From positions 1-33,572 of the forward strand of contig CAIVJW010000087.1 in NCBI GenBank assembly GCA_903906315.1: a stretch of DNA of 33,572 nt, in the 5' to 3' direction. A program made the position numbers and the translations under genes. Positions 611 through 15,623 of the stretch are shown here, piece by piece. The stretch's first letter is position 1; the number at the start of each line of letters is the position of its first letter. The notes under the pieces are model-generated. The model ran no database searches, was not told where the DNA came from, and saw only the letters and a program-made list of their open reading frames with translations. The DNA is from an uncultured delta proteobacterium. Its GTDB lineage: Bacteria > Myxococcota_A > Polyangia > Polyangiales > Polyangiaceae.

Positions 611-1966
611 CTAGCGGCCCTTGCCGCGGAGCCGCTCGAACAGGAGCTCGCGCAGCGCCTCCTGCCGCAGGCCATCCTCGTCGACGGGGCCCGCCTCGCG
701 CAGGTGCGTCGCCCACGCCGCAGGCCGCGGGCGGCCGAGCCGCTCCTCGAAGTACCACCGCCAGAGCTCGTCCTCTCCGACGCCCGCGTCGTCGAGGCCG
801 GGCGCCTCGAGGCCGTGCGCTCCGAGCACGCGGCGCTTCTCGTCGGCGCGCAGCCGCAAGGCCGCGTAGCGCCCCGTCGCGCAGAGCTCCTCGACGAGGT
901 GCCGCCGCGCGTCGGTCTCGAACATCGCCTCGAGCCAGCGGAGCCGCGCTTCTCCCTCCAGAAACCGCGTCCAGTCGTCGTCGCCCTCGAGGCCGTTCTC
1001 GGCGCGGAACGCGGTGAGGCGCCCTTCGTCCTCGATCCCGCGCTCGGCCCGGAACGCGCGCTCGGCCCGGTCGGCGAGGCCGCGCCCCACGTCCACCCCT
1101 TGCCGCTTCGCCTCCGTCCGCGCGAGCGCGCGCAGCATCGCGCCCGTCCGCGCGCGCGGCCAGGCGTCGCCGTCGAGGCGTAGCTCCTCGGCCAGCGCGC
1201 CCGCGTCGCTGCTCGCGTCCGCGCCGGTCGCCGCGCGCGCGCCCTCGTGCCGCGCGACCTGGTCCCACGCGTCGGTGTGCTCGAACGAGAACGCCACGCG
1301 CTTCGGCCCCGGCGCCTCGGCCCGCAGCTCGGCGAGCCTCTCGAGGAGCGCGATCGCGTCGTCGCGCTTCTGGTTCACGCGCGACCCGCGCACGAACGCC
1401 TTGAAGCCGTCGATCTGGTCGGCGCGCAACCCCGCCTCCCGCCCGCGCGCGATCAGCGCGGGGTAGGACCGCTCCGGGTAGTACGTCTCCTTCGCGAGGC
1501 GCTCGAGCGCGGCCCGCGTCCTGCGCGACACGACGCCGGCCTTCTCGGCCGCGCGCAGCGTCGCGCGCAGGTTCACCATCGCCTCGCTCGTCGCGCGGTA
1601 GCCCGTGTCGGCCGCGCCGTGCGCGACCGCGACCTCGTCGTCGTCCTCGAGCTTGCCCGATCGCGCCGCGCGGAAGATCGCGCCGACGCCCTCCATCCCG
1701 AACGCCTCGAGCTCGGCTGCGCGCAGCGCGCCCATGCTGGAGGCGCCGAGCACGTGCACGCCCTGCGACATCGCCCAGAGGATCTCCTTGTGCCAGACCG
1801 CGGGCACGCGCTCGAAGTAGCCGTCGATGATCCCGACCGCGAACGGCCGCTCGAGCGCCGCGCGGTAGACGTCGCCCTGGCCCGCCGGCGGCCGGTAGTC
1901 CGCGTCGAGCACGCGCCGCGCGTCGTCCGCCGCGAGCGTCGGCCCCGTGAAGACGACGATCCTCAC
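611..1966 (-). CDS. tfuA: TfuA-family protein (YcaO partner, peptide thioamidation)
   Basis: A 451-aa protein starting at GTG 1966, whose GTG overlaps the ycaO stop as GTGA, so the two are translationally coupled. The open frame continues upstream, but the TfuA family begins at RIVVFTGPTL. The N-terminal ~190 residues carry the recognisable TfuA core: FTGPTL, the GIIDGYFERVPAVWHKEIL block, GASSMGALRAAELEAFGM and DDEVAVAHG followed by AMVNLRATL. TfuA proteins act with YcaO enzymes to replace a backbone carbonyl oxygen with sulfur (McrA thioglycine in methanogens, thioamidated RiPPs in bacteria). The proposed role is to deliver sulfide to the YcaO. The remaining ~220 residues are charged, probably helical and not recognised; they may bind the substrate or YcaO. 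Confidence in the family is high. The substrate is unknown. Confidence 0.92.
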   Translation of the reverse strand: MRIVVFTGPTLAADDARRVLDADYRPPAGQGDVYRAALERPFAVGIIDGYFERVPAVWHKEILWAMSQGVHVLGASSMGALRAAELEAFGMEGVGAIFRAARSGKLEDDDEVAVAHGAADTGYRATSEAMVNLRATLRAAEKAGVVSRRTRAALERLAKETYYPERSYPALIARGREAGLRADQIDGFKAFVRGSRVNQKRDDAIALLERLAELRAEAPGPKRVAFSFEHTDAWDQVARHEGARAATGADASSDAGALAEELRLDGDAWPRARTGAMLRALARTEAKRQGVDVGRGLADRAERAFRAERGIEDEGRLTAFRAENGLEGDDDWTRFLEGEARLRWLEAMFETDARRHLVEELCATGRYAALRLRADEKRRVLGAHGLEAPGLDDAGVGEDELWRWYFEERLGRPRPAAWATHLREAGPVDEDGLRQEALRELLFERLRGKGR

Positions 1967-3210
1967 GCGCCCCCCGCGGCCTCGGCGGCCCGCCTCGCGC
2001 GCGGCCCCGGCACGTACCCCGGCGCCTCGTGCACCGATTCGAGCCCCGGCACGATGACCCGCACGACGGGGACGCCGAGCTCGGGCCGCGTGAGATCGAC
2101 GACGATCGCCTGCGGCACGCCCACGGCGCGCAGCCGGTCGAGCAGGAAGCCGAGGTCCTCCTCGAACGTCTCGCGCACGAACGTCGGCGCGCTCGAAAAG
2201 GGCCGGATCCCCTCGCGGGCGATCTCGGCGCGCGTCCGCTCGATCCCTTCCTGGTCGCGCGCCATGCGGTACTTGTCGCGCCCGCTGTCGTCGCGCGACC
2301 CCGCGATGAACGTGAGCCGGCTCTGCGCGGCCTCCGTGAGCGCGCGCAAGAGCGCGACCTCGCGCACCGGGTGACAGCCCATGCCGTGCGTCGGGTACAG
2401 CAGCCGGAGCTTGTTCGTGTCGCGCTCGACGATCACGCACAGGAACGCGGCGACGCCGACGTCGGTCGTCGTGTCCCACACCCCGACCGCGACGCCGGCG
2501 CGGTCGTAGCGCGCGAGCACCTCGCGGCACGCCGGGTCGTCGATGGTGCGGAGATCCACGCGCCGATCCGCCTGCGCGCGCTCACCGGAGTAGACCCACA
2601 GCGTGGTCGCGTCGCGCTCGATGACCTCGCACAGCCCGTGGCTCACGGCCTCGAGCAGGTGGTTGCCGGACGCGAGCCCGTTCGAGCTCATCACGAACGA
2701 CCCGCTGCCCGTCGGCAGCGGCAGCGTGTAGTTCGCGTGCACCATCTCGTAGGGCACCCACGCGCCCTCGCCGTCGTAGAGATCCGTGCCCTCGACCCAC
2801 AGGAGCTTGTGGTTCGCGTGGAACGACCCGATCGACAGGCGCGGCAGCCCCTCGACGGCCACGAGGCGGTGCGAGAACCGCAGCTCGTTCCACGTCGCGA
2901 GCTTGAGCGGGTGCGCCATCCGCTCGGCGTGCCAGAGCTCGGCCGACTCCATCAGCCCCGAGGCGCGCGCCGCGTCGAGGTCGAGCCCCTTGCCCTGCGA
3001 CACCGCGAGCGATCGCGCGTTCGGCCGGCACACCATCACGACCGGCAGGCCGATCGAGTCGAGCCCCGTCACGTTCGCCACCCGGGTGATGCCCATCAGG
3101 CGCGCGAGCCGCCGGATCCGCGCGACCGTCTCCGCCGGCGGGACCACCCGCTGGGTCCCGCCGCCAAAGTGCAGCTTGGTCGTTCGCGCGGACGCCGGCT
3201 TTCGCTTCAT
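1963..3210 (-). CDS. ycaO: YcaO-domain ATP-dependent peptide cyclodehydratase/thioamidase
   Basis: A 415-aa YcaO protein. YcaO enzymes phosphorylate a backbone amide oxygen with ATP; with TfuA the product is a thioamide. Family ATP/Mg motifs are visible: SQGKGLDLDAA (71-81) followed by the acidic pair in GLMESAELWHAE (E88, E91), then SSNGLASGN (175-183) with EAVSHGLCEVIERD (E187, H191, E195, E198), and the Arg/Gln-containing ALTEAAQSR. The C-terminus (ending AAGGA) lacks the PxPxP tail of azoline-forming cyclodehydratases, which fits a TfuA-dependent enzyme. There is no E1-like or ocin-ThiF partner gene nearby. The start is ATG 3210, 14 nt after the stop of the 108-aa gene and without a clear Shine-Dalgarno, so re-initiation from upstream is likely. 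It overlaps tfuA by 4 nt. Confidence 0.94.
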   Translation of the reverse strand: MKRKPASARTTKLHFGGGTQRVVPPAETVARIRRLARLMGITRVANVTGLDSIGLPVVMVCRPNARSLAVSQGKGLDLDAARASGLMESAELWHAERMAHPLKLATWNELRFSHRLVAVEGLPRLSIGSFHANHKLLWVEGTDLYDGEGAWVPYEMVHANYTLPLPTGSGSFVMSSNGLASGNHLLEAVSHGLCEVIERDATTLWVYSGERAQADRRVDLRTIDDPACREVLARYDRAGVAVGVWDTTTDVGVAAFLCVIVERDTNKLRLLYPTHGMGCHPVREVALLRALTEAAQSRLTFIAGSRDDSGRDKYRMARDQEGIERTRAEIAREGIRPFSSAPTFVRETFEEDLGFLLDRLRAVGVPQAIVVDLTRPELGVPVVRVIVPGLESVHEAPGYVPGPRARRAAEAAGGA

Positions 3211-3224
3211 GCGGGCTGGCGGGC

Positions 3225-3551
3225 CTACTTCTTCTCGTCGCCGAATGCGTGGTCGGTGCGCAGGCTGCCGAGGTTCACGACGTAGCAGACGGATCCGATG
3301 CCGACGCCGACGCTCTGCGGGATGAACGCGAGGGTCGTGCCCATGCTGAGCAGCCCCGTCACCGGGCCCGCGTCCTTCACGTCGAGTTCGTACTTCTTCT
3401 GCTTGTAGACGCTCTCCGGCAGCTTGTAGAGCTTGCCGTCGTCGGCGGCGATGACGAGCGTCTTGAGCGGCAGGCTCTTGCCTCCCTCGCCCTTCTTCGG
3501 CGTCGCTGCGGGCTTCGCTGCGGTCTTCTTCGCGGTCTTCTTGGCGGCCAT
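3225..3551 (-). CDS. 108-aa Lys/Ala-tailed small protein, candidate YcaO-TfuA partner or substrate
   Basis: Not recognised as a known family. Residues 1-27 are a basic, low-complexity tail (AAKKTAKKTAAKPAATPKK), like histone H1-type tails. Residues 28-108 look folded: a strand-rich segment (LKTLVIAADDGKLYKLPE), then a hydrophobic Gly/Thr/Ser-rich part (LLSMGTTLAFIPQSVGVGIG) with the only Cys (SVCYVV), and a charged end (FGDEKK). It starts at ATG 3551 behind GAGGAG with 6-nt spacing, and its stop is 14 nt from ycaO. In RiPP loci the precursor usually sits immediately before the modifying enzymes, and this is the only small gene in the block. Being the substrate is an inference. At 108 aa it is long for a precursor, so it could instead be a modified functional protein or an accessory DNA- or RNA-binding protein. 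Confidence 0.75.
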   Translation of the reverse strand: MAAKKTAKKTAAKPAATPKKGEGGKSLPLKTLVIAADDGKLYKLPESVYKQKKYELDVKDAGPVTGLLSMGTTLAFIPQSVGVGIGSVCYVVNLGSLRTDHAFGDEKK

Positions 3552-3581
3552 TCGAGGCTCCTCGGGGTGAGAGTGGACGAC

Positions 3582-3606: not shown

Positions 3607-4482
3607 TCAGGCGAGCGAACGCTTCGCGTAATCGGCGACGCTCGTGAGCGTCATCGGCATCGCCTCGAGCGCCTCCGCGGACGACACCGGCAGCCCGCGC
3701 GCGGTCGACAGCATGAGCGCGCCGAAGGCCTCCTCGACCGCGTTCGTCGCGCCGGCGAGCTGCGCCTCGAGCGCCGCCTCGGGCACGTGCTCGACCTCGA
3801 CCTTCGGGCCGCCGGCCGCCTCGAACGCGCGGATGACGTCGAGGTAGCTCACGGCCTCCGGGCCCCCGAGCGTGAACGTGGCGTTCCTCGCCCCGGGCGC
3901 GTCGACGGCGGCGGCCGCGAAGCGCGCCACGTCGCCGAGCGAGATGAAGCTCGTGGCCTTGTCGCCGGCGCCGAGCACGCGCGCCTTGCCGTGCGCCGCG
4001 TCGAAGCCGAGGGCCGGCGAGAGCCACACCTCCATGAAGTCGGTCGGCTGAAGGATCGTGTACGTCATGCCGCTCTCGCGGATGCGCGCCTCGACCGCGC
4101 GCTTCGCACGCTGGAGCGCGCAGTCGACCGGGAGCGGCGCGAACGAGACGAAGACGAAGTGCTTCACCCCGGCGGCCGCGGCCGCGTCCACGAGCGCGAT
4201 CTGCCCGTCGCGGTCCACGGTGTCGATCGAGTCGCCATCCTGTCGCGACAGCGTGGCGGACGCTGTCGAGACGACGGTGGTCGCGCCCAGACACGCCGCC
4301 GCGAGCGACTCCGGCGCCTTCAGGTCGCCGTGGTGGATCTCCGCCCCGTGGCCCTCGAGCGCGGCCTTCTTCCCGGCCTCCGACGTCGTCCGCGCCAGCG
4401 CGCGCACGGGCTTTCCCGCCGCGCGCAAGAGCCGCGTCACCTCACCACCGAGAAAGCCCGTCGCACCTGCTACCAAGATCAT
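3607..4482 (-). CDS. Atypical SDR, NAD(P)H-binding NmrA-like oxidoreductase
   Basis: A 291-aa protein with the N-terminal Rossmann motif GATGFLGG (residues 6-13) of extended/atypical short-chain dehydrogenases. It also has a second-strand Arg-rich NADP-type stretch (VRALARTT), the GDLKAPESLAAA segment and FVFVSFAPLP. There is no classical YxxxK catalytic pair where a true SDR would have it, as is common in NmrA/atypical-5 members that sense or bind NAD(P) or act on quinones. The start is ATG 4482 with AGAAGGA about 10 nt upstream. It lies 49 nt after the 254-aa unknown gene and 55 nt before the 108-aa gene, so it may be co-transcribed, but its connection to the YcaO-TfuA chemistry is unproven. 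Confidence 0.88.
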   Translation of the reverse strand: MILVAGATGFLGGEVTRLLRAAGKPVRALARTTSEAGKKAALEGHGAEIHHGDLKAPESLAAACLGATTVVSTASATLSRQDGDSIDTVDRDGQIALVDAAAAAGVKHFVFVSFAPLPVDCALQRAKRAVEARIRESGMTYTILQPTDFMEVWLSPALGFDAAHGKARVLGAGDKATSFISLGDVARFAAAAVDAPGARNATFTLGGPEAVSYLDVIRAFEAAGGPKVEVEHVPEAALEAQLAGATNAVEEAFGALMLSTARGLPVSSAEALEAMPMTLTSVADYAKRSLA

Positions 4483-4531: not shown

Positions 4532-5296
4532 CTATCGCGTCCGGGTGAAATACCCCGCCGGCCGCAGCACCTCGCGCGTCTCGCGCAGCGTGCACGCGGC
4601 GATGGACGCGAAGAAAGGGCATTCCTTCATCAGGATCGCGACCGTGTCCTCGACGAGCTTCGTCGGGTTCTTGGTCCGCGGCAGCTTCCACAGCTCGAAG
4701 AACGTGTTCAGGAGGCCCGTCACGTTCTGGTGGCAGCCGAGGTACGTCCAGTCCCGCTGCATGAAATAGGGCACCGCGAACGACAGCTGCATCGTGTAGC
4801 GCGCGAGGTCGTCGCGCCCGATGCGCCGCGTGATGCGGACGTAGTGGTCGCCCTCGTCGCCGGCCTCGGGCGCCGGGAGGTCGAACGCCATCGGGATGCG
4901 CCACACGAGGTTCTGCACCTCGCGCGTGACGAGGTTGTCGAGCGCGACGTACGCGTCCGTGTCGGCGAGGTCCTTCATCACGTTGCCGAGGTTGCCGTCG
5001 GTGTCGTCCTCGGGCATCTGCCAGACGTTCACGAAGGTCACGAACGGGCCGGCGTCCTCGGCGTGGCGCGCGAAGTGCGGGCTGGCCGTGTGGACGTCGG
5101 TGACTCGCGACTCGAGCTCCTTCGGGCCGTCCGCGCGGTAGGCCCCGACGAGCCTCCACCTCGCGGAGTCGAAGCCTCCTTCGTCGAAGAACGTCTGCGC
5201 CCGGCCCACGAACTCGTCGGCGTGCCTCCGCGGCACCAGGATGCTCACGTGCAAGAAGTTCCCGGACCGCGCGCCCGCCGCTGCTCTCTTCGCCAT
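4532..5296 (-). CDS. Unrecognised 254-aa protein
   Basis: Not recognised. ATG 5296 was chosen because GGGAG lies about 8 nt upstream; the open frame continues much further back only because it runs antisense into the rplM region. The protein is soluble, with no signal peptide or membrane segment. It has strand/helix alternation and conserved-looking aromatic clusters: GNFLHVSILVPRR, FVTFVNVWQMPEDD, YVALDNLVTREVQNLVW, HYVRITRRIG, FMQRDWTYLGCHQNVTG and the terminal AGYFTRTR. The opening HVSILVP and later YVRIT strands would suit a ferredoxin-like or dimeric alpha-beta barrel fold, but that is a guess. It is the first gene of the minus-strand block ending in ycaO-tfuA. No enzymatic motif could be identified. 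Confidence 0.8.
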   Translation of the reverse strand: MAKRAAAGARSGNFLHVSILVPRRHADEFVGRAQTFFDEGGFDSARWRLVGAYRADGPKELESRVTDVHTASPHFARHAEDAGPFVTFVNVWQMPEDDTDGNLGNVMKDLADTDAYVALDNLVTREVQNLVWRIPMAFDLPAPEAGDEGDHYVRITRRIGRDDLARYTMQLSFAVPYFMQRDWTYLGCHQNVTGLLNTFFELWKLPRTKNPTKLVEDTVAILMKECPFFASIAACTLRETREVLRPAGYFTRTR

Positions 5297-7473: not shown

Positions 7474-8427
7474 ATGAACGACGAAGCGCGCGAGCTCGGG
7501 CGGACGGTGGATCGCTTCGTCGCCCACCTCGTCGGCGAGCGGCGCGCGGCGGCGCACACCGTGGCCGCGTACCGGCGCGACCTCGCCCAGCTCGTCGCGT
7601 TCGCGCGCGAGCGGCGGCCGGAGCTGCGGCTCGCGGGCGAGGTCGACGTGCTCCTGCTGCGTGGCTGGCTAGGGCAGCTCGCGCGCACGCACGCCCCCGC
7701 GTCGATCGCTCGCAAGATCGCCGCGGCCCGCGCCCTCTTTCGCTGGCTCCTGCGACACGGCGAGGTGGCCGAGAGCCCCGCGAGCCTCCTGGCCCTGCCC
7801 AAGGTGCGGCGGTCGCTTCCGACGTTCCTCAACGTCGACGCCGCCGCCGAGGTCGTCGAGACGCCCGACGAGGCGAGCGCCGAGGGGCTGCGCGACCGAG
7901 CGTTGCTCGAGACGCTGTACGGATCCGGGCTGCGCGTGTCGGAGCTCTGCGGCCTCGACCTCGAGCACGTCGAGCTCGACGGCGGCACGGTCCGCGTGCT
8001 CGGCAAGGGCGACAAGGAGCGCCTGGTGCCGCTCGGATCGAAGGCCGTCGAGGCCATCCACCGCTGGCTCGAGCGCCGCGACGAGCTGACCTCCGACCGC
8101 ACGGGCCCCGGCGACGTGCGCGCGCTCTTCCTCTCGGCGCGGGGCCGTCGCCTCGGCGTGCGGCGCGTGCAGACGCTCGTGCACCAATATGGCGCGCTCG
8201 GCGCGGGGCGCGCCGACCTTCACCCGCACGCCCTCCGCCACACCTGCGCCACGCACCTCCTCGAGGGCGGCGCCGACCTGCGAGCCATCCAGACGCTGCT
8301 CGGGCACGCGAGCCTGTCGACGACCCAGCGCTACACCCACGTCTCGGTGGATCACCTCATGAAGGTCTACGACGAGGCGCATCCGCTCGCTCGCTCGGCG
8401 AAGCGCCGCGGCGAGGGGGGCGCGTGA
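7474..8427 (+). CDS. xerC: Tyrosine recombinase, XerC/XerD family
   Basis: A 317-aa enzyme, the usual size for Xer recombinases, which resolve chromosome dimers at dif. Residues 10-100 form the SAM-like core-binding domain (RTVDRFVAHLVGERRAAAHT), and 120-310 the catalytic domain. The catalytic set is complete: R154 (SGLRVSEL), K178 (GKGDKERLVPLG), H252-x-x-R255 (HALRHTCATHLL), H278 (LLGHASL) and nucleophile Tyr287 (QRYTHV). ATG 7474 was chosen over an upstream TTG-type start because it gives the family N-terminus. A possible extended -10, TGCTAGGCC (7454-7462), would leave only ~5 nt of leader. The stop overlaps the next gene as GTGA. The neighbours are housekeeping genes, so a host Xer is more likely than an element integrase. 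Confidence 0.93.
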   Translation: MNDEARELGRTVDRFVAHLVGERRAAAHTVAAYRRDLAQLVAFARERRPELRLAGEVDVLLLRGWLGQLARTHAPASIARKIAAARALFRWLLRHGEVAESPASLLALPKVRRSLPTFLNVDAAAEVVETPDEASAEGLRDRALLETLYGSGLRVSELCGLDLEHVELDGGTVRVLGKGDKERLVPLGSKAVEAIHRWLERRDELTSDRTGPGDVRALFLSARGRRLGVRRVQTLVHQYGALGAGRADLHPHALRHTCATHLLEGGADLRAIQTLLGHASLSTTQRYTHVSVDHLMKVYDEAHPLARSAKRRGEGGA

Positions 8428-12967: not shown

Positions 12968-14248
<1,281 letters not shown>

Positions 14249-14279
14249 TCGCAGGCCGCGGCGCGTCGGGTGTCGCGGC

Positions 14280-14320
14280 TGACCGAAGTCATGGCCGGTG
14301 CCCACCGGGCGTCCTAGCTT
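14280..14320 (+). promoter_or_regulatory. Candidate Crp/Fnr-type class II promoter of ric
   Basis: TGAC-cgaa-GTCA (14280-14291) is a perfect dyad with the 4-nt spacer of Fnr/Dnr-type sites. A -10-like TAGCTT lies at 14315-14320. If transcription starts at 14327, the dyad centre (14285.5) lies at -41.5, the canonical class II activator position. No -35 hexamer is evident. A Crp/Fnr regulator is encoded just downstream at 15620-16354. The geometry is read from the sequence; binding is inferred. Confidence 0.5.
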
Positions 14321-14367
14321 CCTCGGGCGAAGCTCGGAGGCGCCGGGCTCGCGGAGGAAACCCGACC

Positions 14368-15057
14368 ATGTTCGATCGCTCCCAGCTCGTCGCCGACATC
14401 GTGCTCGACCACCCCCGCACCGGGCGCGTCTTCGAGAGCCTCCGCATCGACTTCTGCTGCGGCGGCCGGATCCCCCTGGCCGACGCCTGCGCAGCCCATT
14501 CGCTCGACGAGAGCAAGGTGCTGGCCTCGCTCGCGGCCGCGCTCGACGGCGAGCCCACGCGCGAGCGCGATTTCCGGCGCATGAGCACGCTGGCGCTCGT
14601 CGCGTACCTCGTCGAGCGGCACCACGAGTACCTCCGCGAGGTGCTGCCCGAGGTGATCCGCATGGCCGACAAGGTGAGCCGCGTCCACGGCGACAAGAGC
14701 GCGGACGTCGCCGCGATCGGCGAGCACGTGCGCGCCCTCGCCGGGATGCTCGAGCCTCACCTCGTCCGCGAGGAGGACGTGCTCTTCCCTCTCCTCGTGT
14801 CCGCGGGCGAGGCCGGCGTGTCCGCGGAGCTCGCCGCGATGAGCGACGACCACCTCGAGGTCGGCGCCGCGCTCGTCAAGATCCGCGCCCTCACCAACGA
14901 CTTCACGGTGCCGACCTGGGGCTGCACGACGGTGCGTGCGCTGTGGGCGGCGCTCGAGGACGTCGAGCGCGACGTCCACCGCCACGTGCACCTCGAGAAC
15001 AACGTCCTCTTGCCGCGCTTCGCCCCGGGCGACGCCGCGGGCGCCGCGTGCTGCTGA
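14368..15057 (+). CDS. ric: Iron-sulfur cluster repair di-iron protein (ScdA/YtfE/RIC)
   Basis: A 229-aa RIC protein that repairs Fe-S clusters damaged by nitric oxide or peroxide. Residues 1-60 are the ScdA N-terminal domain with the diagnostic DFCCGG (C30-C31). Residues ~75-220 form the hemerythrin-like di-iron helical bundle, with ligands visible in VERHHEYL, EPHLVREEDVLFP, SDDHLEVG and HVHLENNVLLPRF. The ATG has GGAGG (GCGGAGGAAACCCGACC) upstream. It ends in ACC-GCC-like AAGAACC, with two C-terminal cysteines. The next gene overlaps it by 10 nt. Regulation by a Crp/Fnr protein is suggested by the upstream dyad. Confidence 0.95.
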   Translation: MFDRSQLVADIVLDHPRTGRVFESLRIDFCCGGRIPLADACAAHSLDESKVLASLAAALDGEPTRERDFRRMSTLALVAYLVERHHEYLREVLPEVIRMADKVSRVHGDKSADVAAIGEHVRALAGMLEPHLVREEDVLFPLLVSAGEAGVSAELAAMSDDHLEVGAALVKIRALTNDFTVPTWGCTTVRALWAALEDVERDVHRHVHLENNVLLPRFAPGDAAGAACC

Positions 15058-15623
15058 CGATCGGCCAGGCCCCGGCGGGCGCGTCCCCCGGGGCGGAGGA
15101 CGCGGGGCCGGTCGCGCTCCTGCTCGCCTGCCACGCTCGCATCCGCGATTTCGGCGCGCTGGCGCGGCGGATCGCCGGCGCCGTCGACGCGCCCGCGTCG
15201 CACGTCGGGGACGCGGCGCGCGATCTGCATCGCTACCACACGCTCGCCCTGCCGCTGCATCAGGCCGACGAGGACCTCACGGTCCGCCCTCGGCTCGAGG
15301 CCGCCGCGAGCGCGCCCGAGGTCCGCGCCGCGCTCGCCCGCATGGGCGACGAGCACGTCGCGCTCGAGCTCGTCCTCGCCGAGCTCTGCCCCCTCTGGGC
15401 CACCCTGCGCGACGACCCCACGCGCCTCCCCGAGCTCGCGCCGCGCCTCATCGCCCCGACGGACGCGCTGATCGCGCTCTGGGATCAGCACCTCGCGCCC
15501 GAGGAGGCCCTGATCTTCCCCGCGCTGGCCGCCGTGCTCTCCCCGGCCGAAAACGCCGCGATCGCAGCCGAAATTCGCGCGCGTCGCGACGCCGAGCGGG
15601 CGGCCGGCGGCTTCTCGCTCTAG
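15048..15623 (+). CDS. Hemerythrin HHE-domain protein
   Basis: A 191-aa protein predicted to be a hemerythrin-like four-helix bundle that binds a di-iron centre. Candidate ligands occur in order: LACHARIRDF (H29), YHTLALPLHQADEDL (H71, E75), MGDEHVALE (H103, E107) and WDQHLAPEEALIFP (H148, E152). The start is GTG 15048, inside the end of ric (10-nt overlap), so the two genes are translationally coupled and probably share a role, such as handling NO, O2 or iron during nitrosative stress. The long frame further upstream is out of phase with ric and is not coding. The gene converges with the Crp/Fnr gene, whose stop falls within its last codons. Confidence 0.88.
   Translation: MLLTIGQAPAGASPGAEDAGPVALLLACHARIRDFGALARRIAGAVDAPASHVGDAARDLHRYHTLALPLHQADEDLTVRPRLEAAASAPEVRAALARMGDEHVALELVLAELCPLWATLRDDPTRLPELAPRLIAPTDALIALWDQHLAPEEALIFPALAAVLSPAENAAIAAEIRARRDAERAAGGFSL

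Follow-up and report, generated by a model that had tools for sequence, protein, structure and literature searches.

The stretch of DNA analysed here (33,572 nucleotides, called the window throughout) carries a minus-strand cassette in which p255, an NmrA-like gene, the gene for a 108-aa protein, ycaO and tfuA follow one another in that order (Table 1). It belongs to a genome of 8.8 Mb in 455 contigs, in which the cassette YcaO is the sole YcaO above the Pfam cut-off, and the relatives with the same loci are Polyangia-type myxobacteria, including Sorangium, Polyangium and Byssovorax. The first-pass annotation, made from the sequence alone, had picked out the 108-aa protein as an atypical YcaO substrate because it was the only small ORF, had a good ribosome binding site and directly preceded ycaO. 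These particulars hold up: no other small ORF lies between nmrA and ycaO, the GAGGAG is placed better than any candidate ahead of ycaO, and the gene, which starts with ATG, is separated by 14 bp from the ycaO ATG at 3210. The single Cys of the protein is likewise confirmed, as residue 89. ycaO and tfuA overlap by 4 bp, the start codon of tfuA being a GTG at 1966, and a scan for sigma-70-like promoters gave no candidate. Homologues of the small ORF occupy the same place in other genomes, and changes at codon position 3 exceed those at position 2 in most of the homologue pairs compared; on both counts, the ORF is more than a product of chance.

Table 1. Genes and features of the cassette, with their positions in the window.
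Feature	Position	Strand	Basis
p255, tandem dimeric alpha/beta-barrel protein, 254 aa, recurrent companion	4532..5296	-	AlphaFold and Foldseek
NmrA-like NAD(P)-binding protein, recurrent companion	3607..4482	-	PF05368, E 5e-29
Shine-Dalgarno GAGGAG of the small gene	3558..3563	-	6 nt ahead of ATG
Putative YcaO-TfuA substrate protein, 108 aa	3225..3551	-	Slot upstream of ycaO in homologues; Pfam and NCBIfam blank
Leader-like hairpin of the 108-aa protein, residues 31-45 (TLVIAADDGKLYKLP)	3417..3461	-	Predicted strands and motif recurrence
C89-Y-V-V-N-L94 motif, candidate modification site	3270..3287	-	Cys conservation
YcaO (ATP-dependent backbone amide activation)	1963..3210	-	PF02624, E 2.5e-87
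TfuA	611..1966	-	PF07812, E 5.6e-48

We used the distribution of the small gene across related genomes as a measure of its association with ycaO. A first homologue search returned ten copies in nine genomes, nine of them directly before a ycaO and the tenth a tandem copy beside a ycaO fragment, at the same locus as another of the ten. A profile of the small domain, built from 30 sequences, was run on the same 108 genomes of the taxonomic family in which a YcaO search had found 26 positive. The domain is present in 21 of the 108; 26 of its 27 copies are within 300 bp of a ycaO and the remaining one is a tandem copy 2 kb away, so that all 27 stand at ycaO loci. Counted by genome, it occurs in 21 of the 26 YcaO-positive genomes and in none of the 82 without a close YcaO (Fisher 5e-18, uncorrected for shared ancestry, the genomes in this and the later co-occurrence test not being phylogenetically independent). 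Chance co-location of the small gene and ycaO was rejected in view of this exclusive linkage, and the G360 match of a phylum-wide profile was discarded as a false positive, being weak, in an ORF of about 420 aa and not at a ycaO. As a separate observation, the cassette is duplicated at one locus (L013, G002:C277, 5669-7962): the small gene and the p255-like gene each occur twice, with 87 bp left of a ycaO (7474-7560) in between.

Two outcomes had been named beforehand as counting against a substrate, namely homologues widespread without ycaO and a match to an unrelated known family. Neither was seen: the linkage is as described above, and no Pfam or NCBIfam model matches the protein at E 1, the Nif11 and NHLP leader models included. 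Both results favour a YcaO-TfuA substrate over a classical short peptide. From its occurrence, within this bacterial family, only beside YcaO, we conclude that the 108-aa protein is very probably modified by YcaO-TfuA, and by these database comparisons it appears to represent a previously uncatalogued protein family.

The enzymes themselves qualify as a YcaO-TfuA system, with the diagnostic PF02624 and PF07812 domains encoded by overlapping genes, and the two genes form a tandem pair in nearly every relative with enough flanking DNA. YcaO scores 232.4 bits against TIGR03266 (McrA thioamidation), below the equivalog cut-off of 365 bits, and TfuA scores 209.7 bits against NF033432, below its equivalog cut-off of 235.2 bits. 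The best solved relative of the YcaO is MJ1094 (structure 6pe3, E 5e-36). TfuA also has a C-terminal extension of about 240 residues (window 611-1360), conserved in many relatives, not all, and without a Pfam match. YcaO enzymes phosphorylate the backbone amide oxygen and, with TfuA and a sulfur source, form a thioamide; they often cyclise Cys, and often have discrete partner proteins.

Conservation within the 108-aa protein is concentrated in two elements, the hairpin motif DDGKLYKL (residues 37-44) and the C-terminal C-Y-x-x-N-L (89-94). In a ten-sequence alignment Cys89 and Gly71 are invariant, and Gly39, Tyr42, Leu67, Asn93 and Leu94 are nearly so. The conserved parts being a hairpin that resembles a leader and, towards the C-terminus, a Cys/Asn motif, the putative site falls near the C-terminus, as in RiPP precursors, and the modified residue most likely lies within or next to C-Y-x-x-N-L. 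The first-pass annotation had instead placed an internal core in a Gly/Thr/Ser-rich stretch and proposed aligning homologues for a conserved Gly/Ser block. Only part of this survives: in block 65-86, G71, L74, A75, I77 and P78 are kept and the Ser/Thr residues are not, so the block was dropped as a core; the GVGIG loop is missing from the Sorangium homologues. The histone-like basic tail was also abandoned as a functional element, since the Lys/Ala tail is absent in L005 and L010 and short or different in other homologues.

An AlphaFold model (30 sequences) of moderate quality, with a mean pLDDT of 69 (about 80 in its better parts) and a pTM of 0.42, predicts strands at 31-35 and 41-45, two helices, and strands at 74-77 and 89-92, giving a small domain with the element order beta-beta-alpha-alpha-beta-beta. 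Compared with solved folds, this domain model gave no Foldseek match at E 0.001 and a best VIA-align Z of 2.8. An RRE (PqqD-like) domain would have a winged helix-turn-helix fold; against this stand the predicted element order given above and a comparison in which no structure of any kind matched with confidence. A likeness to beta-propellers was taken as generic because the PDB sequence matches cover only short blade-like hairpins, and a ThiS-type carrier was rejected because the protein ends in GDEKK, with no C-terminal Gly-Gly, and the ends of the homologues are variable.

In Polyangia, the proteins found in this slot range from 78 aa to nearly 500 aa and consist of one or more copies of the domain. 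The motif Cys is present in 30 of 34 terminal or single domains and in 0 of 13 internal ones; the sequences were hand-listed and include several close relatives, and the collapsed count still gives 1e-5. Cys is a mark of the terminal domain copy. The exceptions are L039, which has no Cys, and three others in which it is shifted by two residues. Asn-Leu is found in terminal and internal domains alike and may be structural. The N-terminal part of L142, L145 and L101 resembles the p255 barrel domain by eye; a Pfam search of L101 did not confirm this.

Another way to view the slot is through its occupants in other phyla. ORFs adjoining ycaO were collected at 80 loci from many phyla, and they share a motif, (V/I)RGADGxLY, whose counterpart in the window is VIAADDGKLY. 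The hairpin motif is also found before ycaO in Chloroflexi, Verrucomicrobia and Alphaproteobacteria. A Polyangia-only profile has its best matches elsewhere in ycaO-slot ORFs of Pseudovibrio, Telmatospirillum and Acidobacteriota, and a hairpin-motif profile finds precursors with which it was not seeded (L037, L038, L043, L046, L056 and L061), five upstream of ycaO and one after tfuA. In the YcaO tree the window clade is sister to a variable-core clade. There, tails of variable sequence, many of them built of repeats, come after the hairpin motif, for example DHASARVFVDPG in L031 and L033, D-x-x-A-G-R-M in L037 and L043, FASSW in L044, PCFAY in L058 and DIIVS-type repeats in L030, whereas in the window clade the C-terminus is the conserved motif. 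Variable, often repeated tails behind a hairpin motif amount to a leader-plus-core architecture, which is typical of precursors. In a distant relative, L166 (1126-1497 in ycaO orientation, G428:C501), what appears by eye to be a Nif11-type precursor stands directly before a divergent YcaO, with ELTDELLAGVAGG at the leader end and then a Gly-rich core. Together, the tails and this precursor indicate that the slot next to ycaO encodes the substrate, and the window gene has two features expected of a RiPP precursor gene: it lies in the precursor slot and carries a conserved recognition-type motif.

Several further loci deserve separate mention. Repeat peptides GDHxASRxVIxPG/EAGDYDAGRMAI precede ycaO-tfuA at Kiloniellales loci L031, L033, L034, L037 and L043, four of which have a Crp-like regulator after tfuA, and a cyclase-AAA-TPR gene lies upstream in L037 and L043; these peptides are likely multi-core thioamide precursors. 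Several of the divergent YcaO-TfuA pairs had no recognisable substrate nearby. In Granulosicoccus, a DUF3095 protein (Pfam E 3e-110 in L080; L090 alike by eye) is immediately upstream of ycaO-tfuA in L080 (4855-5928) and L090 (5009-5965), and no substrate was recognised at either locus. An acetyltransferase-like ORF (GNAT by eye) is directly ahead of ycaO-tfuA in Paracoccus L047, L068 and L078, whose clade has no recognisable precursor.

The leader-plus-core layout, the repeated cores of the sister clade and the Nif11-like slot protein of the distant L166 could also mean that the window protein is the precursor of a secreted thioamidated RiPP; it would then lose its leader and yield, for export, a C-terminal peptide around CYVVNL. 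We consider this less likely, given that the C-terminal motif belongs to a conserved domain and is not hypervariable, that the companions are signalling genes, and that the conserved neighbours of the Cys-type loci, within about 7 kb, include no recurrent exporter or protease gene. This last result is in line with modification of a protein.

The companion genes point towards signalling. A gene of about 1200 aa encoding a Ser/Thr kinase-AAA_16-TPR protein heads or adjoins the cassette in most Polyangia loci and is also found in Pseudovibrio. At the window locus the kinase does not adjoin the cassette, its orthologue being on another contig; of the well over a hundred kinase-like matches in this genome, a single one covers the operon kinase over its full length (1038 bits, next 114). 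Full-length orthologues are present in 18 family genomes, the window's included, and 18 of 18 carry YcaO (hypergeometric 1e-14), where the full-length cut-off was set after the results were seen and one of the 18 (G002) is interrupted by a contig end. In the variable-core clade the usual neighbour is a class III cyclase-AAA-TPR protein instead of the kinase: Pfam finds Guanylate_cyc in 10 of 19 and AAA_16 in 13 of 19 of the scanned neighbours, and eleven loci have a Crp-like cNMP-binding regulator downstream of tfuA, nine of them directly after it.

NmrA-like homologues recur at several other loci, Pseudovibrio included, and p255 has homologues at the corresponding loci of G002 (two copies), G022 and G465, and probably also of G042, where the contig breaks off, with a single-domain version just upstream of the small gene in G058. 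p255 is predicted by AlphaFold to consist of two dimeric alpha/beta-barrel domains; its best Foldseek match is 2pgc (1e-9), followed by sulfur oxygenase reductases at about 2e-6, a likeness of fold that implies no activity. An anti-phage defence system was considered and rejected, PADLOC being blank for the five window proteins and matching the linked kinase and cyclase through generic domains only. NACHT/nSTAND- and HerA-like large ATPase genes do follow tfuA in Polyangia loci L137, L141, L143, L144, L146 and L148, where a link to a conflict system is possible, and in L018 an FHA plus sigma-54 activator (13552-15432) lies beside the STK-AAA gene, similar genes being found at several Polyangia loci.

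Starting from what was directly computed, namely the reality of the gene, its exclusive linkage, the shared motif, the terminal-only Cys and the kinase linkage, we infer that the 108-aa protein is probably a dedicated substrate of the adjacent YcaO-TfuA within a signal-controlled module, with putative thioamide chemistry, site and signalling role as follows. YcaO-TfuA would probably recognise the hairpin DDGKLYKL of a protein made up of a dispensable basic N-terminal tail and a small domain with the predicted order beta-beta-alpha-alpha-beta-beta. Going by other members of the two enzyme families, ATP-dependent activation of a backbone amide by YcaO and delivery of sulfur by TfuA would lead to a thioamide, the C-terminal C-Y-x-x-N-L being the candidate target region. 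In the window clade the product would probably be kept as a protein, and the module would comprise the NmrA-like protein, the barrel protein and, in relatives, the STK-AAA-TPR kinase, with the modified protein as its intracellular output under kinase or cyclase control.

The conserved Cys of the terminal motif, together with the general tendency of YcaO enzymes to cyclise Cys, would fit the installation of an azoline at C89 in place of a thioamide, but we judge this improbable, as TfuA is present, the best family matches are the McrA thioglycine pair, no E1-like or dehydrogenase partner adjoins the cassette, and L039 has no Cys. Less probable again is an accessory protein (an RRE-like recognition domain or a ThiS-like sulfur carrier) that aids the modification of another protein, since, although a small folded domain in a protein of about 100 aa, the commonness of discrete YcaO partners and the ThiS-type carriers known for thioamide-forming YcaOs (PMC13063428) would suit it, the ThiS-type C-terminal Gly-Gly is lacking, the same hairpin bears repeated cores in relatives, multidomain versions have a single terminal Cys, and the cassette holds no other candidate substrate.

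A dedicated substrate of this kind would add an uncatalogued family across several phyla, would supply a recognition motif common to its members along with a delimited candidate site, and would tie YcaO-TfuA enzymes to kinase or cyclic-nucleotide signalling; what the TfuA-associated YcaOs of myxobacteria act on could then be put to a direct test. More tentatively, there might be a widespread signalling module in which STAND-like sensors (AAA and TPR joined to a Ser/Thr kinase or an adenylate cyclase) control thioamidation by YcaO-TfuA, the target being a small dedicated protein or a repeat peptide. If so, signal transduction in several bacterial phyla would have backbone thioamidation as a regulated output, and the set would not be a natural-product cluster.

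To our knowledge, the characterised YcaO-TfuA substrates are few, being McrA and a few RiPP classes. Our literature search found no description of the substrate family, of the shared hairpin motif or of the link to kinase- or cyclase-AAA-TPR proteins. Genome mining has counted the TfuA-associated YcaOs of Corallococcus and others (PMC8120280), and some of the peptides described here may be listed among the unnamed candidates of that survey.

The McrA thioglycine system provides the closest models for the cassette YcaO and TfuA, and its substrate too is a protein and not a short peptide. However, both equivalog cut-offs are missed, and the putative cassette substrate is a small protein that is unrelated to methyl-CoM reductase alpha and is encoded next door. 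With the thioviridamide group, the thiovarsolins and Std, the cassette has in common a small gene beside ycaO-tfuA. The repeated cores of the window's relatives resemble VarA (PMC6511847), and the Std YcaO-TfuA thioamidates an Asn (PMC13174530), a residue also conserved in the C-terminal motif of the window protein. Unlike the loci of these thioamidated RiPPs, the cassette is not regularly accompanied by their kinds of tailoring enzyme, or by an exporter or a protease; it has instead a conserved C-terminal domain, predicted to be folded, and kinase or cyclase companions. The Nif11 and NHLP families are similar in that, next to ycaO, variable cores come after a small leader domain, but their leader sequence is unrelated to the window protein. 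Finally, the E. coli YcaO, which thioamidates the folded ribosomal protein uL16 (PMC13063428), has neither TfuA nor an adjacent substrate gene, in contrast to the window cassette; what the two would share is the backbone modification of a folded, functional protein.
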